DNA from: an uncultured bacterium
GTDB lineage: Bacteria > Verrucomicrobiota > Kiritimatiellia > CAIKKV01 > CAIYGI01
Direction of reading: 5' to 3'
Assembly: GCA_903925685.1 (NCBI GenBank)
Contig: CAIYGI010000017.1
Location: 1 to 37,453, forward strand
Length of the DNA stretch: 37,453 nt
Shown: in pieces, positions 5,205-17,965 of the stretch
How positions within the stretch are numbered: the first letter of the stretch is position 1
Layout of the letters: the number at the start of each line of letters is the position of its first letter
Program-made: the position numbers and the translations under genes
The notes under the pieces: model-generated
What the model was told of the DNA's origin: nothing
The model's database searches: none
What the model saw: only the letters and a program-made list of their open reading frames with translations

Positions 5205-6605
5205 TCAGCGGGACAAGGTCAGTTGCCGGGTCAGGGAGGCAATCTCCTGGCGCAGTGTTTCGTTGTTTACCATGCGCTTCTCGACCATGCGTACGCCGTG
5301 CAGTACGGTGGCATGGGTTTTGGCGAACGCCGCGGCGATGCTGGGCAGCGACGATGGGGTCATGGTCCGGCACAGGTACATGGCGATCTGACGAGGCACG
5401 GCGATAGCCTGGGGGCGTCGCTTGCTGGTCATGTCGCCCAGGCGCACGTCGTAGTGATCCGCCACGGCTTTCAAGATCATCTCGAAAGTCACCAGCTGTT
5501 GCCGTTCCTGATCGAGCAGATCGTGCAGCAGGCGCTCCAGGTCCGGCACGGTCAGCGGACGGCGCAAAAGCGCGGCGTAGGAAGTCGCCCGCGTCAGGGC
5601 GCCCTCCAGGCGGCGAACGTTGTTATGGATGGACTTGGCGATGAACTGTACCGCCTCCTCCGGCATGCCCATGTTGTGATGGGTCATCTTGGTGTGCAGG
5701 ATGGCCATGCGCGTCTCGTAGTCCGGCGGCTGCAACTCCGCCACCTGGCCCCACTCGAAACGCGACACGAGGCGCTGTTCCAGTCCCTGGATCTCCGAGG
5801 CCGGGCGGTCGCTGGTCATGACGATCTGCCGGTGGGCGTCGAAGAGCGTATTGAAGGTGTGGAAGAACTCCTCCTGCATGCGCTCCTTGCCCGCCAGGAA
5901 ATGAATGTCGTCGATCAGCAGCAGGTCCACGCCGCGGTACTTGCGCCGGAACTGCACCAGCGTGCGGTTTTGCAGGCTGTCGATGTATTCGTTGGTGAAG
6001 GTTTCCGAGGAGAGATAACAGACCTTGGCGTTTTGGCGGCCCAGCACATGATGCGCGATGGCCTGCATCAAATGGGTCTTGCCCAGACCCGATCCGCCGT
6101 AAATAAAAAGCGGATTGTAGGCATGCGCCGGCGCCTGCGCGACGGCCATCGCGGCGGCATGCGCAAAATTATTGGAAGGGCCGACGATGAATTCGGCAAA
6201 GGTGAAGCGCGGGTTAAGCATCGAGTCCGTCGTACCCACCGCGCCGCGCTTGGGCGCGTGACCAGGTCCCGACGGATGACGCAGCAAGGCGTTCATCGGC
6301 GCCATGGCCTGGGCGGCTGCGAGCGCGGCATCCGGCGAAGCAGGCGCGTCGGAGTGTGTCACCGTAAGACGTATCGCGGCGGTTTTCCCCGTGGTGGCGG
6401 TCACTGCGTTTTGAATGATCGGCAGATAATTTTCCTCCAACCAGGTCTGGTAAAAATCGTTGTCCACTCCCAGCACCAGAGTCTGATCGTCAACCGCCAC
6501 CGGACGTATCACCGCGATCCATCGTTCGAAAACATCGGGATGCAACAGGCTGCGCAAATGCGCGCAGGCTCCCTGCCAAATCGTTTCGGCTGTCTGCTCA
6601 CTCAC
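5205..6605 (-). CDS. dnaA: Chromosomal replication initiator protein DnaA
   Basis: This AAA+ ATPase binds DnaA boxes and opens the origin. In order it has the N-terminal helicase-interaction domain ('IWQGACAHLRSLLHPDVFERW'-type start), a variable linker, 'FTFAEFIVGPSNNFAHAAA', Walker A 'GGSGLGKTHL', Walker B 'LLIDDIHFL', sensor 'MTSDRPASEI', and the C-terminal DNA-binding domain with 'RRPQAIAVPRQIAMYLCR' and 'THATVLHGVRMVEKR'. The product is 466 residues from the GTG at 6605, chosen because GGAGG lies 6-7 nt before it; the frame extends upstream to 6665 without support. It heads the dnaA-oriC-dnaN-psd-pssA-udg block. Confidence 0.97.
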   Translation of the reverse strand: MSEQTAETIWQGACAHLRSLLHPDVFERWIAVIRPVAVDDQTLVLGVDNDFYQTWLEENYLPIIQNAVTATTGKTAAIRLTVTHSDAPASPDAALAAAQAMAPMNALLRHPSGPGHAPKRGAVGTTDSMLNPRFTFAEFIVGPSNNFAHAAAMAVAQAPAHAYNPLFIYGGSGLGKTHLMQAIAHHVLGRQNAKVCYLSSETFTNEYIDSLQNRTLVQFRRKYRGVDLLLIDDIHFLAGKERMQEEFFHTFNTLFDAHRQIVMTSDRPASEIQGLEQRLVSRFEWGQVAELQPPDYETRMAILHTKMTHHNMGMPEEAVQFIAKSIHNNVRRLEGALTRATSYAALLRRPLTVPDLERLLHDLLDQERQQLVTFEMILKAVADHYDVRLGDMTSKRRPQAIAVPRQIAMYLCRTMTPSSLPSIAAAFAKTHATVLHGVRMVEKRMVNNETLRQEIASLTRQLTLSR

Positions 6606-12079: not shown

Positions 12080-12487
12080 TTACACTCGCGCCAGCGCATC
12101 GGACGAAACGAATAGGTTGCGGCGGCGAAAGGCGACCGGACTTTCCGCGAGCAAAATGGCCTTGAGGCTTTCCAGCGCTCCGGCAAACCATGGGCGATGC
12201 AGGTAGCAACGGGGCGATTCCGTCCACTCCGGTGGCTTCAACCCGGCTTCGCGACAAAGCGTCTCGACCGTCGCCGCCCAATAGGCGTTACAGTCCTCCT
12301 GAGACGGGGCATCGACCCACATGGGCGCCTCGTTCACCAAAGCCAGCTTCTCTTCCGCGGTTGCGGCCCGCATTCGAAAATCGTCAACGAGATCCCCCAG
12401 CCGCCACAAAGTCAACGGTTCGCCGCGTTGCATGGCGTCATTCCACTCCAGGCTAATCGCCCGCAGGCTCAGCAATGCTTGTTTCAT
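12080..12487 (-). CDS. Uncharacterised partner of a DUF6036-like nucleotidyltransferase
   Basis: A 135-residue soluble protein with no motif of known function. Recognisable stretches are 'LVDDFRMRAATAEEKLALVNEAP', 'NAYWAATVETLCREAGL', 'WFAGALESLKA' and 'ESPVAFRRRNLFVSSDAL'; the last two are the kind of block seen in proteins found with DUF6036 nucleotidyltransferases. Its ATG overlaps the nucleotidyltransferase stop by 4 bp, so the two are made together. It may be the antitoxin or targeting partner; this rests on context only. Confidence 0.65.
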   Translation of the reverse strand: MKQALLSLRAISLEWNDAMQRGEPLTLWRLGDLVDDFRMRAATAEEKLALVNEAPMWVDAPSQEDCNAYWAATVETLCREAGLKPPEWTESPRCYLHRPWFAGALESLKAILLAESPVAFRRRNLFVSSDALARV

Positions 12488-13008
12488 GACGACTCATGCT
12501 CCTGGCATAGTTCCTCGATTGCAAATCGCGTTTTGGGCTGGATCCGATTCCGAGGATAGTATTTCTCGACAATTTCCAGCACGGCCTCGGCCCGCCGCAA
12601 CCCGAGTTGTCGTATCAGGAATCGAATGTCCCGAATGTCCGTTTCGTCCTTTCCGATGCGCATGCTCATGCACTTCATGGCCAACAAGTATTCCGGCGCC
12701 GCAACGAATACTTTCAAGTGCGGCAGGTCGAGCAGGGGAAGTGTTTCGGCCCTGTCGCTGAGGAATCCCTTGACGGCATCGTTCAACCACCCCTCGGGAG
12801 CGCCATATTCGCGTGTCACTTCCGAGGCCGCCGCGTACACATCCGCCTTGGGAACGAATATGGCGTCCACATCCTTGGTGCTTACCCGTGCCTGATGCGC
12901 CAAGACCATCGCCGCGCCGCCGAAAAGCACGATTTCTCCCACAGTATTCCGGCGCCCAAGCAAATCCGAAAGACGGTTAAGATACGCTTCGATTTCCTTC
13001 CGTTCCAT
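12484..13008 (-). CDS. DUF6036-like nucleotidyltransferase
   Basis: A 174-residue protein with a short nucleotidyltransferase core: 'EIVLFGGAAMVLAHQ' then 'STKDVDAIFVP', giving the GG...DxD metal site, followed by 'YLLAMKCMSMRIGKDETDIRDIRFLI', the region AbiEii/DUF6036 proteins use after the core. Such proteins resemble the enzymes of AbiE and MNT toxin-antitoxin systems. It is coupled by ATGA to the 135-residue gene downstream. The MITE-like element lies about 50 bp upstream of its start. The toxin role is inference. Confidence 0.75.
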   Translation of the reverse strand: MERKEIEAYLNRLSDLLGRRNTVGEIVLFGGAAMVLAHQARVSTKDVDAIFVPKADVYAAASEVTREYGAPEGWLNDAVKGFLSDRAETLPLLDLPHLKVFVAAPEYLLAMKCMSMRIGKDETDIRDIRFLIRQLGLRRAEAVLEIVEKYYPRNRIQPKTRFAIEELCQEHESS

Positions 13009-13046
13009 ATCATCAAGCTAGCACCCCCCCCCTGCCGCCGCAAGTT

Positions 13047-13208
13047 CAAACTGACCAGCAATTCTCATTATGGCTCCTGACCCCCGCGACCTTGCGTCGC
13101 GGGTGAACATGATTGGTGGAAAACGCGGGCATTTTCCACCAATCATCCGCTCCTGCCGCGCGAGGCGGCAGGGGACAAGAACCATAATGAGAATTGCTGC
13201 AAACTGAC
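13047..13208. mobile_element. MITE-like element (13056-13199) with 9-bp target-site duplication
   Basis: The 144-bp element has perfect 18-bp terminal inverted repeats, CAGCAATTCTCATTATGG (13056-13073) and its complement (13182-13199). The 9-bp direct repeat CAAACTGAC abuts both ends (13047-13055 and 13200-13208). Inside are three perfect hairpins: CCCGCGAC/GTCGCGGG (13083-13103), ATGATTGGTGGAAAA/TTTTCCACCAATCAT (13109-13146) and CCTGCCGC/GCGGCAGG (13152-13172). The whole folds as a four-way cloverleaf. It has no reading frame of its own and would depend on a transposase elsewhere. The family is unidentified; 9-bp duplications occur, for example, with IS4-group elements. Confidence 0.85.
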
Positions 13209-13284
13209 GTCGCAGAGCGACAGGGGCGGCTTTTTTCACTCCTGAGCCGTGAAGTTATCCGCATGTTCCACATTATTTTCATGC

Positions 13285-13290
13285 TATGAT
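13285..13290 (+). promoter_or_regulatory. Candidate -10 box of ispH, suggesting a leaderless mRNA
   Basis: TATGAT lies 6 nt before the ispH ATG, and no Shine-Dalgarno precedes the start. A -35 box is not convincing at the expected place (13262-13267). Confidence 0.4.
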
Positions 13291-13296
13291 TTGCTC

Positions 13297-14145
13297 ATGC
13301 GCGTGCTAACCGCACAATCCGCCGGGTTTTGCTGGGGTGTCCAACAGGCTGTGGACAAGGCTCGCCGTCTGGCGCGCGAGACGGGCGGGCCGGTGCATAC
13401 CGACGGGCCGCTGATTCACAACGAGCAGATGCTGGCCTGCCTGCGCGCCGAGGGTATTCGCGAGACGGACGATCCTGCCGCCCTCCGCGACGGCACGCTG
13501 ATGATTCGCGCCCACGGCATTCCACCCGCCCGGCGCGCCTGGCTGGCCGGGCTGCCGGTGCGCCTGGCCGATGCCACCTGCCGCGATGTGGCGCGTATTC
13601 AGGGATTGATCCGCAAACATGCCGCCCGCGGCTTCCACACGGTGATTTTCGGCGACCCCGACCATGCCGAGGTCCTCGGACTGCTGGGTTTCGCCGAAGG
13701 GCGCGGCCATGTCGTCCAAAGCCCCAATGAGGTGGACGCCCTGCCCGCCGGCTTGGAGCCGGTCTGTCTGGTGGCCCAGTCCACGGAGTTTGTGGATTTA
13801 TACGAAGCCGTGGCGGCGGCGATCCTCCGGCGCTATCCCGGCGCCGTGGTGCTCGAAACGATCTGCGCCGCCACGCGCGAACGGCAGGCGGAGCTTGGCC
13901 GGCTGGCGCGCGAGGCGGATGCGGTGGTGGTGGTCGGCGGACGCGCCAGCGCCAATACTCTGCGACTGGTGGAACTGGCGCGGCGCGACAAGCCCACCTT
14001 TCATGTGCAGACGGCCGCCGGCCTGGATCCCGCCGCGCTCAGGGCTTTCCGCACCGTCGCGCTCACCGCCGGCGCTTCAACCCCGGACTTCCTGATCGCC
14101 GAGGTGCGCAGGGCGCTGGAAGCGATCACGCTGGAAGAACACTGA
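13297..14145 (+). CDS. ispH: 4-hydroxy-3-methylbut-2-enyl diphosphate reductase
   Basis: IspH is the last enzyme of the non-mevalonate isoprenoid pathway, making IPP and DMAPP with an Fe-S cluster. The 282-residue protein has all three cluster cysteines, Cys12 in 'GFCWGV', Cys95 in 'DATCRD' and Cys190 in 'ETICAAT'. It also has the substrate motifs 'HTDGPLIHNEQ', 'IRAHGIPP', 'GDPDHAEVLGLLG', 'AQSTEF' and 'TAGASTPDFLI'. I chose the ATG at 13297 because the protein then starts as in the family; the frame is open upstream to 13249. It is slightly shorter than the E. coli enzyme. Confidence 0.95.
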   Translation: MRVLTAQSAGFCWGVQQAVDKARRLARETGGPVHTDGPLIHNEQMLACLRAEGIRETDDPAALRDGTLMIRAHGIPPARRAWLAGLPVRLADATCRDVARIQGLIRKHAARGFHTVIFGDPDHAEVLGLLGFAEGRGHVVQSPNEVDALPAGLEPVCLVAQSTEFVDLYEAVAAAILRRYPGAVVLETICAATRERQAELGRLAREADAVVVVGGRASANTLRLVELARRDKPTFHVQTAAGLDPAALRAFRTVALTAGASTPDFLIAEVRRALEAITLEEH

Positions 14146-14359: not shown

Positions 14360-15286
14360 TTATTTCTTGTCGGAATTCACGTTCGTTATTTGCCCTAAGT
14401 CTTCTTTGATGAAATCGAAATCCTTGTCGGCCTTTGCCAACTCAGCATTCTCGGGCGACTTCTCGACCGACAATCGCAATGATTCGAGGGACTCCTTCTT
14501 CAAACGAACCTCCTCCTCTTCACGTTCATGTGCATCATGGACCTGTCTGGCCTTCAACGCATGATAGCACGCTATATTGTAGTAGGCGTCAGCGATGTCC
14601 ACTTTTGTTTCCGCACTGCCCCGTCCCTTTGTTTGCTTGTCTAAATTCTTGATGAACGTCCTAAGGCACAAGATGGCATTGTCGTAATCTCCAAGGCGTT
14701 TATAGAGTCGCCCGAGGTAGATATGCAATGTTCTGTGTGTTGGAAAGTCCGATTCGACCTTATTTAGCGCCTGAATTGCCTGCGGAACGTCAATCGTTGT
14801 ATCTGCGCGCGATAGCGCTGTCTGGGCAAATGACATCGCCTCTGTAAAACTAACGGCCTGATTGCTTGTGGCCGCAGCGTTATTGGCAATCTTTTCGGTA
14901 TCTGTTATGCGACGCTTCATCAACTCTCTTTCCAGTTGATCGCCAATTACTGGAACCATACGGCGACTGAACACCCCAGACACCAACATGAGCGCCCAAA
15001 GGAACACAGTGTTATCGACGGAATCGATAAAGGAGAGTTTCTGCACCCAAAGACCGCCAACAAGTACGCAACCGGCACCAGCAAGCCCAAACAAACCGCG
15101 ACCAAGAAAAAAAAGCCCATGGCTTCTGTTTTTCTTCCGTTCTTCATGACGGGCAATCCCACGAACGTCATCAGGTTCTGGCGGAGGTTCAGAGCATATG
15201 TCTAGATATTCCGATGCGGCAGAAATCATGCCGCCAACCATCCCCGGAATAACGACCAGAAGAGCAACATGCCAAGACTGCATCAT
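14360..15286 (-). CDS. Membrane-anchored tetratricopeptide-repeat protein, unknown role
   Basis: A 308-residue protein. Three hydrophobic segments ('VALLVVIPGMVGGMISA', 'LFGLAGAGCVLVGGLW', 'VFLWALMLVSGVF') occupy the first ~110 residues. A soluble domain with TPR-like helices follows ('HIYLGRLYKRLGDYDNAILCL', 'DIADAYYNIACYHALKA') and then a charged coiled tail. The start ATG has GGAGG 7 nt before it. It lies 54 bp after gspD on the same strand. Its DNA is visibly more AT-rich and has different codon use from the gsp genes, so it may be a later arrival. Confidence 0.6.
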   Translation of the reverse strand: MMQSWHVALLVVIPGMVGGMISAASEYLDICSEPPPEPDDVRGIARHEERKKNRSHGLFFLGRGLFGLAGAGCVLVGGLWVQKLSFIDSVDNTVFLWALMLVSGVFSRRMVPVIGDQLERELMKRRITDTEKIANNAAATSNQAVSFTEAMSFAQTALSRADTTIDVPQAIQALNKVESDFPTHRTLHIYLGRLYKRLGDYDNAILCLRTFIKNLDKQTKGRGSAETKVDIADAYYNIACYHALKARQVHDAHEREEEEVRLKKESLESLRLSVEKSPENAELAKADKDFDFIKEDLGQITNVNSDKK

Positions 15287-15340
15287 CGCAGCGCCTCCTC
15301 GATAAAATGGACTAACTGCCTAAGTTGTTACCGCGCAAAT

Positions 15341-17965
15341 TCACTTGCCGTTTGCTCGCGGCGTTGGTGGCGGTGGACGGTTGGTTGCCGCGATGGACGG
15401 GTGATTCGTCATGTTTGGCGCGGAAAACGCCGGTTCCGATGGCAACTCAATTGTTGTGTTGGTGGGCGCCGTATTGGTGTAGCCCTCGGCGAGTTTGCTG
15501 CTCGACCAGCCGTATTTCCACATATTATCCAGACTCGCCGTATCACGCCGCCGTTTGGCATCCGCCATGATCTCCTCGGTGGTGTCCAATACACGCGGAG
15601 TCAGGAAGACGATCACCTCTTCGCGGTTCTTTTGGTTGTCATCCGAGCGGAAGAAATAGCCGAGCAGGGGGATTTTGCTCAAGAATGGAATCCCGGTTTG
15701 ATTTTCGATGGCGGTATGCTTGACCAGGCCGCCGAGCATGATCGTCTCTCCACTCTGAACGGAGACTTTGGCTTCCAACTGACGGGAACCGATGATTGGC
15801 CATTTGGTGGTTACACCATTCGCATCGGTGATCGGTTGGTCGCTCACATGATCTTCAATTGTTTGCTGGATGTCCATTGCCACGTATTTCTTTTGATTGA
15901 TGTGCGGCTTGACCTTGAGTTTGGTGCTCACGCGTCGGACTTGGGGGCCGTTGGGGATGTACGTGCCATTCTGATACGCCCCCGGCTGACCGGGGGTATA
16001 TAGATCGGTGGCGACGTCGATCGTGGCTTCTTCGTTATCCATGGTCATAATGACCGGCGAAGACAGCACCCGGCTGCGATTGTCGGAAGCTACCATGTGG
16101 GCCACCGCATCGAGGTTGAGACCGAAAAATGTCATGTAGTACGAGATACCGCCAACGGGACCGAGTGCCCCGGCGGCGTTCAAACTGGTGGCGTCCCTGG
16201 TCACGTTATCCCCCCCCCCTCCGGCGCCGGCGAATCCAAACAACCCCTTACGTCCGCCAGTAGCGGTCTTGTTGTAGGCAATCATCGAACGCTGAAACCA
16301 GTCCACACCGGTTGTGATTTCCTTGTTGAGAGAAACTCCGACGATCAACGCCTCGACCATAACCTGCGAAATCTGGATGTCCATGTCCTTGATCAGGTCC
16401 ATGATGGTGGCCAGATCGGCGCGCGGCGCCATGATCACGAGGCCATTCGAACGCTTGTCAGGGAGGATGCGGATGTTTTGGGCGGAGAGTTGGCCGATCT
16501 TGGTCTTGGTGGCATCGGACACCGCCGCGTTTTGCTGTGCCGCGTTCTGCTGGGCGAAATTGTCCAGCGAGGAACTGCGGGTTGGGGCCGCGTTGTTGAA
16601 ACGTCCGCCATCGCTGTTCCCCATGCCACTGTTTCCGGCGACGTTGCCGCCGACGCCGTAACCGCCGCCGACCCCGGGTGACGAGCCGCCGACGACACTG
16701 CCGGCATTGACGATGGGCGCCATGCGCGACGAAGTGTTCGCCAGTAGTTCCTTGGGCGTCTGGGCGCCGATCAGATTATTGAGAATGGTGACGACGGTCT
16801 CGACGTCGGCATACTCGAGGCGCACCACCTTGACGACGAAATCCGGCTGGGTGGGAATATCCAGGGCGTTCACGATTTTCTCGAAGAACGGCATGTTTTC
16901 CGGCCGGGTCAGAATGATCAGCACGCTGGTGCGGTCGTCGGCGACGATTTTTACATTGCCGCGGATCAGGCGGCCTTCCTCGGTGGTTTCATCGCCGGTG
17001 GTGTCCGAGGTTGTGTTGGCACGCACCGGCAGCACCATCGGGGCGCGGATCACGCCGGGAATCCGGCTGGGCGAGGGCACAGTCGTTTCCATGCCCGGAG
17101 GCCCCGAGGTGCGCGCGCGCGGCACGGTCGCGGCGGCGCCCTTGGTTTTGTCGTCCGCCAGAATCTCCTCGATTTTGGCTTTGACCTCGGATGCCTTGGC
17201 GTGGCGGATGGGGAGGATCTGCAATTTTTCGCGGGCCTCGATCGGCTGGTCAATCTGCGCCAACACCTCGCGGATGCGGTTGATGTTGATGGCCGAGTCG
17301 GCGATCAAGAGACTGTTGATACGATCCAATATCACTATTTTTCCGTAGGTGTGAATCAGCCCGGCGGCGACCTTTTGCGCGTCGGCAAGCTCGATGTGTT
17401 GCAGCGTGACGATCTCGCTGATGATCTGGTCGTTTTCGGGATGAGCGACCCGGTCCCAGGAGTTGCTTTCGATGCGCAACCCCTCCACCTGCATGTTCGC
17501 GACGGGCACGACCTTGGTGAACTTCGTGCCGACATCCACCAGCCCCACGTTGTTCATGGCGAGCACGGTGCGGATGGCCTGCAGACACTCGTCCACGGTC
17601 AATTTCGACTGGCTGCGCAGGGTGATGGTGGCCGTGATGGCCGGCGCCTCGAGCAGGGTGCGGCCGGTGAGTTCGCCGTAAAACTGGAGCAGTTGCGAGG
17701 CCGGCGCCTGGTTGAATTTGAGCGCGACCAGTTTCTGGCCGTTGGTATCGGTGGATATTTGCGGCGGGGCCGCGGGGGTCAGATTGGGGTCGGTTGGCAT
17801 AGGCGGCGTGAATGGCATGCCCGGGCCGCTTGGCGAGATCGGCGCCGGCGGCGGCACGGAGGGCGGCGTGGCCGGCGGCAGCGGGATTTGCGCGTAGACC
17901 CCGGCGGCGAGACTCAGCGCCAGCGCGGCCAGGCCGCGCCGGATTCCTGTCCTTCGGCTATGCAT
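15341..17965 (-). CDS. gspD: Type II secretion system secretin GspD
   Basis: The outer-membrane secretin channel, 874 residues. It has a signal peptide ('GLAALALSLAAGVYAQ'), a Pro-rich spacer of ~45 residues, then N0-N3 periplasmic domains ('LVALKFNQAPASQLLQFYGELTG', 'HIELADAQKVAAGLI', 'LPIRHAKASEVKAKIEEIL', 'VRLEYADVETVVTILNNLI') with a Gly-rich insert. The secretin domain ('VMVEALIVGVSLNKE', 'SGETIMLGGLVKH', 'IPFLSKIPLLGYFFRS', 'EVIVFLTPRVLDT') is followed by a ~90-residue tail. A TTG at 17971 with AAGGGG 6 nt before it would overlap the upstream stop by 4 bp, as elsewhere in this operon, and may be the true start. Confidence 0.95.
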   Translation of the reverse strand: MHSRRTGIRRGLAALALSLAAGVYAQIPLPPATPPSVPPPAPISPSGPGMPFTPPMPTDPNLTPAAPPQISTDTNGQKLVALKFNQAPASQLLQFYGELTGRTLLEAPAITATITLRSQSKLTVDECLQAIRTVLAMNNVGLVDVGTKFTKVVPVANMQVEGLRIESNSWDRVAHPENDQIISEIVTLQHIELADAQKVAAGLIHTYGKIVILDRINSLLIADSAININRIREVLAQIDQPIEAREKLQILPIRHAKASEVKAKIEEILADDKTKGAAATVPRARTSGPPGMETTVPSPSRIPGVIRAPMVLPVRANTTSDTTGDETTEEGRLIRGNVKIVADDRTSVLIILTRPENMPFFEKIVNALDIPTQPDFVVKVVRLEYADVETVVTILNNLIGAQTPKELLANTSSRMAPIVNAGSVVGGSSPGVGGGYGVGGNVAGNSGMGNSDGGRFNNAAPTRSSSLDNFAQQNAAQQNAAVSDATKTKIGQLSAQNIRILPDKRSNGLVIMAPRADLATIMDLIKDMDIQISQVMVEALIVGVSLNKEITTGVDWFQRSMIAYNKTATGGRKGLFGFAGAGGGGDNVTRDATSLNAAGALGPVGGISYYMTFFGLNLDAVAHMVASDNRSRVLSSPVIMTMDNEEATIDVATDLYTPGQPGAYQNGTYIPNGPQVRRVSTKLKVKPHINQKKYVAMDIQQTIEDHVSDQPITDANGVTTKWPIIGSRQLEAKVSVQSGETIMLGGLVKHTAIENQTGIPFLSKIPLLGYFFRSDDNQKNREEVIVFLTPRVLDTTEEIMADAKRRRDTASLDNMWKYGWSSSKLAEGYTNTAPTNTTIELPSEPAFSAPNMTNHPSIAATNRPPPPTPRANGK

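Follow-up and report, generated by a model that had tools for sequence, protein, structure and literature searches.

The 144-bp element lying between a DUF6036 gene and ispH in the window (the whole stretch of 37,453 nucleotides that was analysed) is, we believe with a probability of about 0.9, a non-autonomous MITE that is mobilised in trans by the DDE transposase of CAGCAATT-ended insertion sequences (ISs). We base this on the occurrence of the same ends on short elements, on IS copies in its own genome and on autonomous ISs that encode a DDE transposase. The element is short and non-coding, it has terminal inverted repeats (TIRs) and a target duplication, and at least five further copies are dispersed in the genome; we regard it as a genuine MITE of the CAGCAATT-ended, ISNCY-annotated IS group, of a kind that is known, and the member described here is new.

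Structure of the element and its insertion site

The features of the element and its surroundings are as follows.

13056..13199, no strand: 144-bp MITE, whole element, non-coding, on contig C17 of the 4.12-Mb MAG
13047..13055, no strand: left copy of the 9-bp target duplication, CAAACTGAC
13200..13208, no strand: right copy of the 9-bp target duplication, CAAACTGAC, exact match to the left copy
13056..13073, + strand: left TIR, CAGCAATTCTCATTATGG, a motif that also ends ISs and other MITEs
13182..13199, - strand: right TIR, perfect inverse of the left TIR
13083..13103, no strand: hairpin 1, CCCGCGAC-CTTGC-GTCGCGGG, 8-bp stem, loop of 5
13109..13146, no strand: central hairpin, 15-bp stem, loop of 8
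13152..13172, no strand: hairpin 3, CCTGCCGC-GCGAG-GCGGCAGG, 8-bp stem, loop of 5
12484..13008, - strand: DUF6036 nucleotidyltransferase-like gene, neighbour outside the element
13297..14145, + strand: ispH/lytB, neighbour outside the element
13209..13236, + strand: right flank with the GTCGCAGAGCGAC hairpin, GGGGCGGC and T6, a proposed and unproven terminator remnant

The sequence-only reading had described an element of 144 bp with perfect 18-bp TIRs, an abutting 9-bp repeat and three hairpins with stems of 8, 15 and 8 bp, and its coordinates were exact; the left and right TIRs are identical over their 18 bp and the element has no ORF of its own. As single-stranded DNA it folds at -53.7 kcal/mol, compared with -22.8 +/- 2.9 kcal/mol for 200 dinucleotide shuffles (z = -10.65), none of which folded equally well. 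The entire 144 bp can also be read as a single 71-bp inverted repeat that is 79% complementary. Within it, hairpins 1 and 3, as read from the sequence, have the common layout G(A/T)CCCC, stem, 5-nt loop, stem, GG, and are placed in opposite orientation. The element gave no match in Rfam at any family's gathering score, and none of its hairpins is followed by a T-run.

The element does lie between divergent genes, as had been claimed: the DUF6036 gene and ispH are both transcribed away from it, the start of the former (13008) being 47 bp from the element and 38 bp from the duplication, and the ATG of the latter (13297) 97 bp from the element. In this position it might influence the expression of either gene, as the sequence-only reading had supposed. 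A run of nine C ahead of the DUF6036 gene (13023-13031) is a possible slippage or sequencing-error site.

It had further been proposed that removal of the element rebuilds a hairpin followed by a T-run, and hence that it may have landed in a terminator-like site. The first part of this proposal stands, in that the flanks joined without the element give a fold of -21 kcal/mol ahead of the T6 run at 13231-13236. Given, however, that this fold draws on the poly-C run, that the site is upstream of both divergent genes, that a terminator scan of 12950-13400 found no GC stem directly before a T-run in the occupied site, and that conservation of the region does not extend to the sister species, we consider a disrupted intrinsic terminator unlikely, and its reconstruction by removal of the element is at best weakly suggested. 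Neither a promoter nor a terminator consensus was seen at the occupied site. In the sister species (G001), ispH is 95% identical, the DNA upstream of it is different and the element is absent; a search there for a clean empty site revealed none, the upstream gene order being different. A single copy at a conserved site in relatives, which the sequence-only reading had named as evidence against mobility, is therefore not what was found: the ispH of the sister species lacks the element, though synteny is broken there.

Same-ended elements and the probable partner insertion sequences

The description of the element as an orphan was wrong, since BLAST found five or more additional copies in the MAG. 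These are 78-93% identical and their ends are mostly decayed; near-identical copies, which had been put forward as a check, were not found among the own-genome copies of the core, so recent mobility of the core is not demonstrated by them. The end motif, in contrast to a control with 2 forward and 1 reverse matches, has 15 of each in the genome, and the same ends enclose other interiors in elements of 322 bp (C107, with the duplication CAATGCACC), 121 bp (C184) and 77 bp (C273). Eight contig ends run into CAGCAATTGTAATTATGGCGTCGAGGACGGA and break off 138-141 bp within it, the pattern that a high-copy IS would leave by interrupting the assembly. Among them, two pairs share identical 9 bp (CATGGCGGA and AGTACTGCG, respectively), for which the chance expectation is about 6e-5; each pair thus flanks a single IS insertion on its two sides. 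The genome therefore contains two collapsed full-length IS copies with ends of the same type and exact 9-bp duplications. For annotation, such CAGCAATT-ended repeats explain breaks in MAGs of the window genus.

The TIRs of the window MITE and of the own-genome IS are alike at 17 of 19 positions and differ at 2, and a MITE copy on contig C306 has its left end in the IS form, identical over 21 of 21 bp, which ties MITE and IS together. The interior of the IS is unassembled. A search of the MAG for the transposase of the CAGCAATT IS family found none; collapse of the IS interior in assembly may account for this, and the interior presumably encodes the DDE enzyme.

Such a transposase is encoded within these ends elsewhere. 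On a Methylococcaceae contig (L154), a 1451-bp element carries these ends around a transposase ORF of 449 aa, and ISs of Calothrix, Anabaena, Saccharobesus and another member of the phylum (G321) combine CAGCAATT ends with exact 9-bp duplications; more distant members retain CAG ends and the 9-bp length. For plasmid-borne relatives the annotation reads transposase or ISNCY family transposase, and for a relative in Gloeothece 'ISNCY family transposase'. Among members, there recurs a weak similarity, below curated cut-offs, to Pfam DDE_Tnp_1 and DDE_Tnp_1_assoc and to NCBIfam IS4, and the invariant residues D132, D221 and E345 would be compatible with a DDE enzyme. A sequence search of solved structures found no relative, and an AlphaFold model of the transposase made from a single sequence had a pLDDT of 36 and was not used. 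The ISNCY-annotated ISs, which may be ISMae2-like in the ISfinder classification, have a transposase near DDE_Tnp_1/DDE_Tnp_1_assoc, as do the IS4 and ISAs1 families, and they combine ends of the CAGCAATT type with 9-bp duplications that are exact. The window element matches this group in end sequence and in duplication length, but it has no ORF and shares with these ISs only the TIRs.

We propose that an ISNCY-annotated, IS4/ISAs1-like DDE transposase of about 420-450 aa, encoded by full-length ISs with CAGCAATT...ATTATGG ends, would recognise both TIRs of the MITE and insert the element, and that insertion would proceed via a staggered cut to give the 9-bp duplication. Between the ends, the core would be a palindrome cassette in which two small hairpins in opposite orientation stand around a larger one. 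We infer the action in trans; the sequence-only reading had likewise suggested movement by a transposase elsewhere, and that reading is supported by the copies in the same genome, by the ISs there that have ends of the same type and exact 9-bp duplications, and by the presence of the transposase family in relatives.

A less usual point, and a lead for further work, is a second gene in the partner IS. In three genomes of the class (G060, G600 and G399), a DruA-like ORF precedes the DDE transposase within CAGC-type ends, and the DruA-like protein of G060 matches PF14236 with an E-value of 2e-36. Elsewhere, PF14236 DruA is known in the context of Druantia defence, and our literature search found no paper on DruA in insertion sequences. 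These two-gene ISs, each with the DruA-like gene directly before the DDE transposase, lie at the following loci.

L229/L268 (G060 C113)
L301 (G600 C105)
L302 (G399 C313)

In the sister species, an IS end matches that of the own genome at 75% identity over 124 nt and continues into a DruA-like ORF, and the DDE gene is assembled in neither genome; the DruA-like protein might then be thought to mobilise the elements of the window genus in place of the DDE protein. We regard this as extremely improbable, since some ISs that have CAGCAATT ends and 9-bp duplications contain the DDE gene alone, and we reject the DruA-like ORF as primary transposase because the DDE gene follows it within the same ends in G060, G600 and G399 and because DruA-like genes keep company with IS66 transposases elsewhere. 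A DruA-like gene adjoins an IS66-family transposase (PF03050) in the own genome (L298, C268, 649-2897) and in another genome (L305, G580 C63, 1077-3442); DruA-like genes thus accompany at least two unrelated IS types.

Homologues of the element occur in other families of its class, and the end motif itself was found in at least 119 stretches across many phyla, the matches listed including Kiritimatiellae, Verrucomicrobia, Deltaproteobacteria, Methylococcaceae, Acetobacteraceae, Anaerolineales, SAR202, Omnitrophota and others. Most short elements with these ends are 83-350 bp long. A 9-bp duplication matching at 8 or more of 9 positions flanks 44 of the 85 distinct short elements sampled (29 of them exactly), whereas no cross-pair control reached 8 of 9. 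Many interiors are strongly folded (median z -4.5) and about 40% are not, so a hairpin core is common without being universal. In the viral contig collection there was a single exact match to the end motif (L231, IMGVR_UViG_3300018063_000008, 2287-2305) and no relative of the transposase; spread by phage is thus not supported. We found no name for CAGCAATTCTCATTATGG-type ends in the literature searched. Short elements with such ends, widespread in many phyla, are now tied to a definite transposase group.

The hairpin core and its likeness to REP palindromes

Across the class, homologues of the full element were found in several families at about 75-84% identity. Hairpin 1 alone, without TIRs, occurs in further genomes of the class with identities reaching 100%, hairpin 3 forms an array without TIRs at 68-bp spacing (L323, G265 C81), and the core does so at about 118-bp spacing (L315, G292 C395). 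Within the own genome, where hairpins were counted in a 278-kb sample, hairpins 1 and 3 are confined to copies of the element. In an alignment of 15 copies, the covariation score was 0.182 as opposed to 0.097 in shuffles (0 of 500), with 51 double-change cells against 24, and nine pairs of the central hairpin have changed on both sides. The two small hairpins are 97-98% paired in this alignment and the TIR stem 66%; the copies were found through the core, so this contrast is biased and only suggestive.

These observations raise the question of whether the element is a former mobile element, now domesticated, whose hairpins are selected as a nucleoid-protein site or as a structure for RNA processing or stability as its ends decay. 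The pairing of the small hairpins, with their compensatory changes, and the intact hairpins in copies with decayed ends are consistent with this. Nevertheless, given the bias just described and the perfect ends and duplication of the window copy, we think domestication rather unlikely; it is in any case compatible with the MITE reading and does not exclude it.

The hairpins also resemble REP/BIME repeats and REPINs (PMC2817692, PMC3116915, PMC3733652) in their 8-bp stems and 5-nt loops, in their arrangement as inverted doublets and in their occurrence, for some, alone or in arrays. Given this size and layout, the hairpins that stand without TIRs, and the presence of Y1 transposase genes in 15 of the 16 genomes examined, the element could belong to the REP/BIME-type repeats and owe its spread to a RAYT (Y1 HUH transposase), its TIR-like ends being incidental. 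Unlike those repeats, it has perfect TIRs and an exact 9-bp duplication, as are common to DDE ISs, and linkage to a RAYT was rejected, as none of 30 Y1 loci had these palindromes within flanks of about 1.5 kb. We therefore hold spread by a RAYT to be very improbable. The REP tag GTAG is absent, and TGAC/TGTC precedes the stems in the window copy; CGTC-type REPs, too, are reported to be without a dedicated transposase (PMC3733652).

As a MITE, the element has its nearest counterparts in form in QMITE2 of Coxiella, Correia/NEMIS and Nezha, which are short, non-coding, strongly folded and intergenic, with TIRs of 15-30 bp and duplications of 7-9 bp (PMC10969869, PMC3733652). The window element is likewise short, non-coding, folded and intergenic, with TIRs and a duplication, and differs from them in that its core hairpins also occur without TIRs and that its TIRs are shared over many phyla. 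The hupL MITE of Ca. Thiomargarita nelsonii, which combines 19-bp inverted repeats with a 10-bp direct repeat that shares one base, is present in very many copies and has no known parent IS (PMC4853749), resembles it, by description, in its inverted and direct repeats.

The core looks like a reusable palindrome cassette that also exists outside such TIRs, and we offer, as a lead, its apparent combination of conservation with exchangeability between ends. Elements of the sister species have the same TIRs around a different palindrome doublet, GGAGGGACGACCTCCGTGTCGTCC, in inverted orientation and 34 bp apart. This doublet also occurs in the own genome outside those TIRs, and in a few places in the sister species without them. 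Doublets of the GGAGGGACGACCTCCGTGTCGTCC type lie at three loci on contigs C13 and C96 of the own genome (L367, about 15275-15410; L368, about 5600-5680; L369, about 5625-5705), and the first of these is set within other inverted ends, GGAGCCTTTTGCAAAACTCCC. Since the doublet between a given set of TIRs varies with the species, and a given doublet occurs in different surroundings, it is a tentative possibility that small palindrome doublets are interchangeable cassettes picked up and spread by DDE-type IS ends. The core may have been captured by IS ends, and perhaps has a role similar to that of REP/BIME palindromes. If true, cassette exchange would provide REP-like palindromes with a route of dispersal without a RAYT. 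The present elements are a concrete case of REP-like palindromes inside DDE-type MITEs, and this makes the spread of REP-like repeats without a RAYT testable.

At three loci of the sister species (L247, L254 and L255, on G001 contigs C120, C15 and C25), some palindromic MITEs have flanks that repeat one another in inverse orientation; this looks like an assembly artefact in which contigs fold back at the palindrome.
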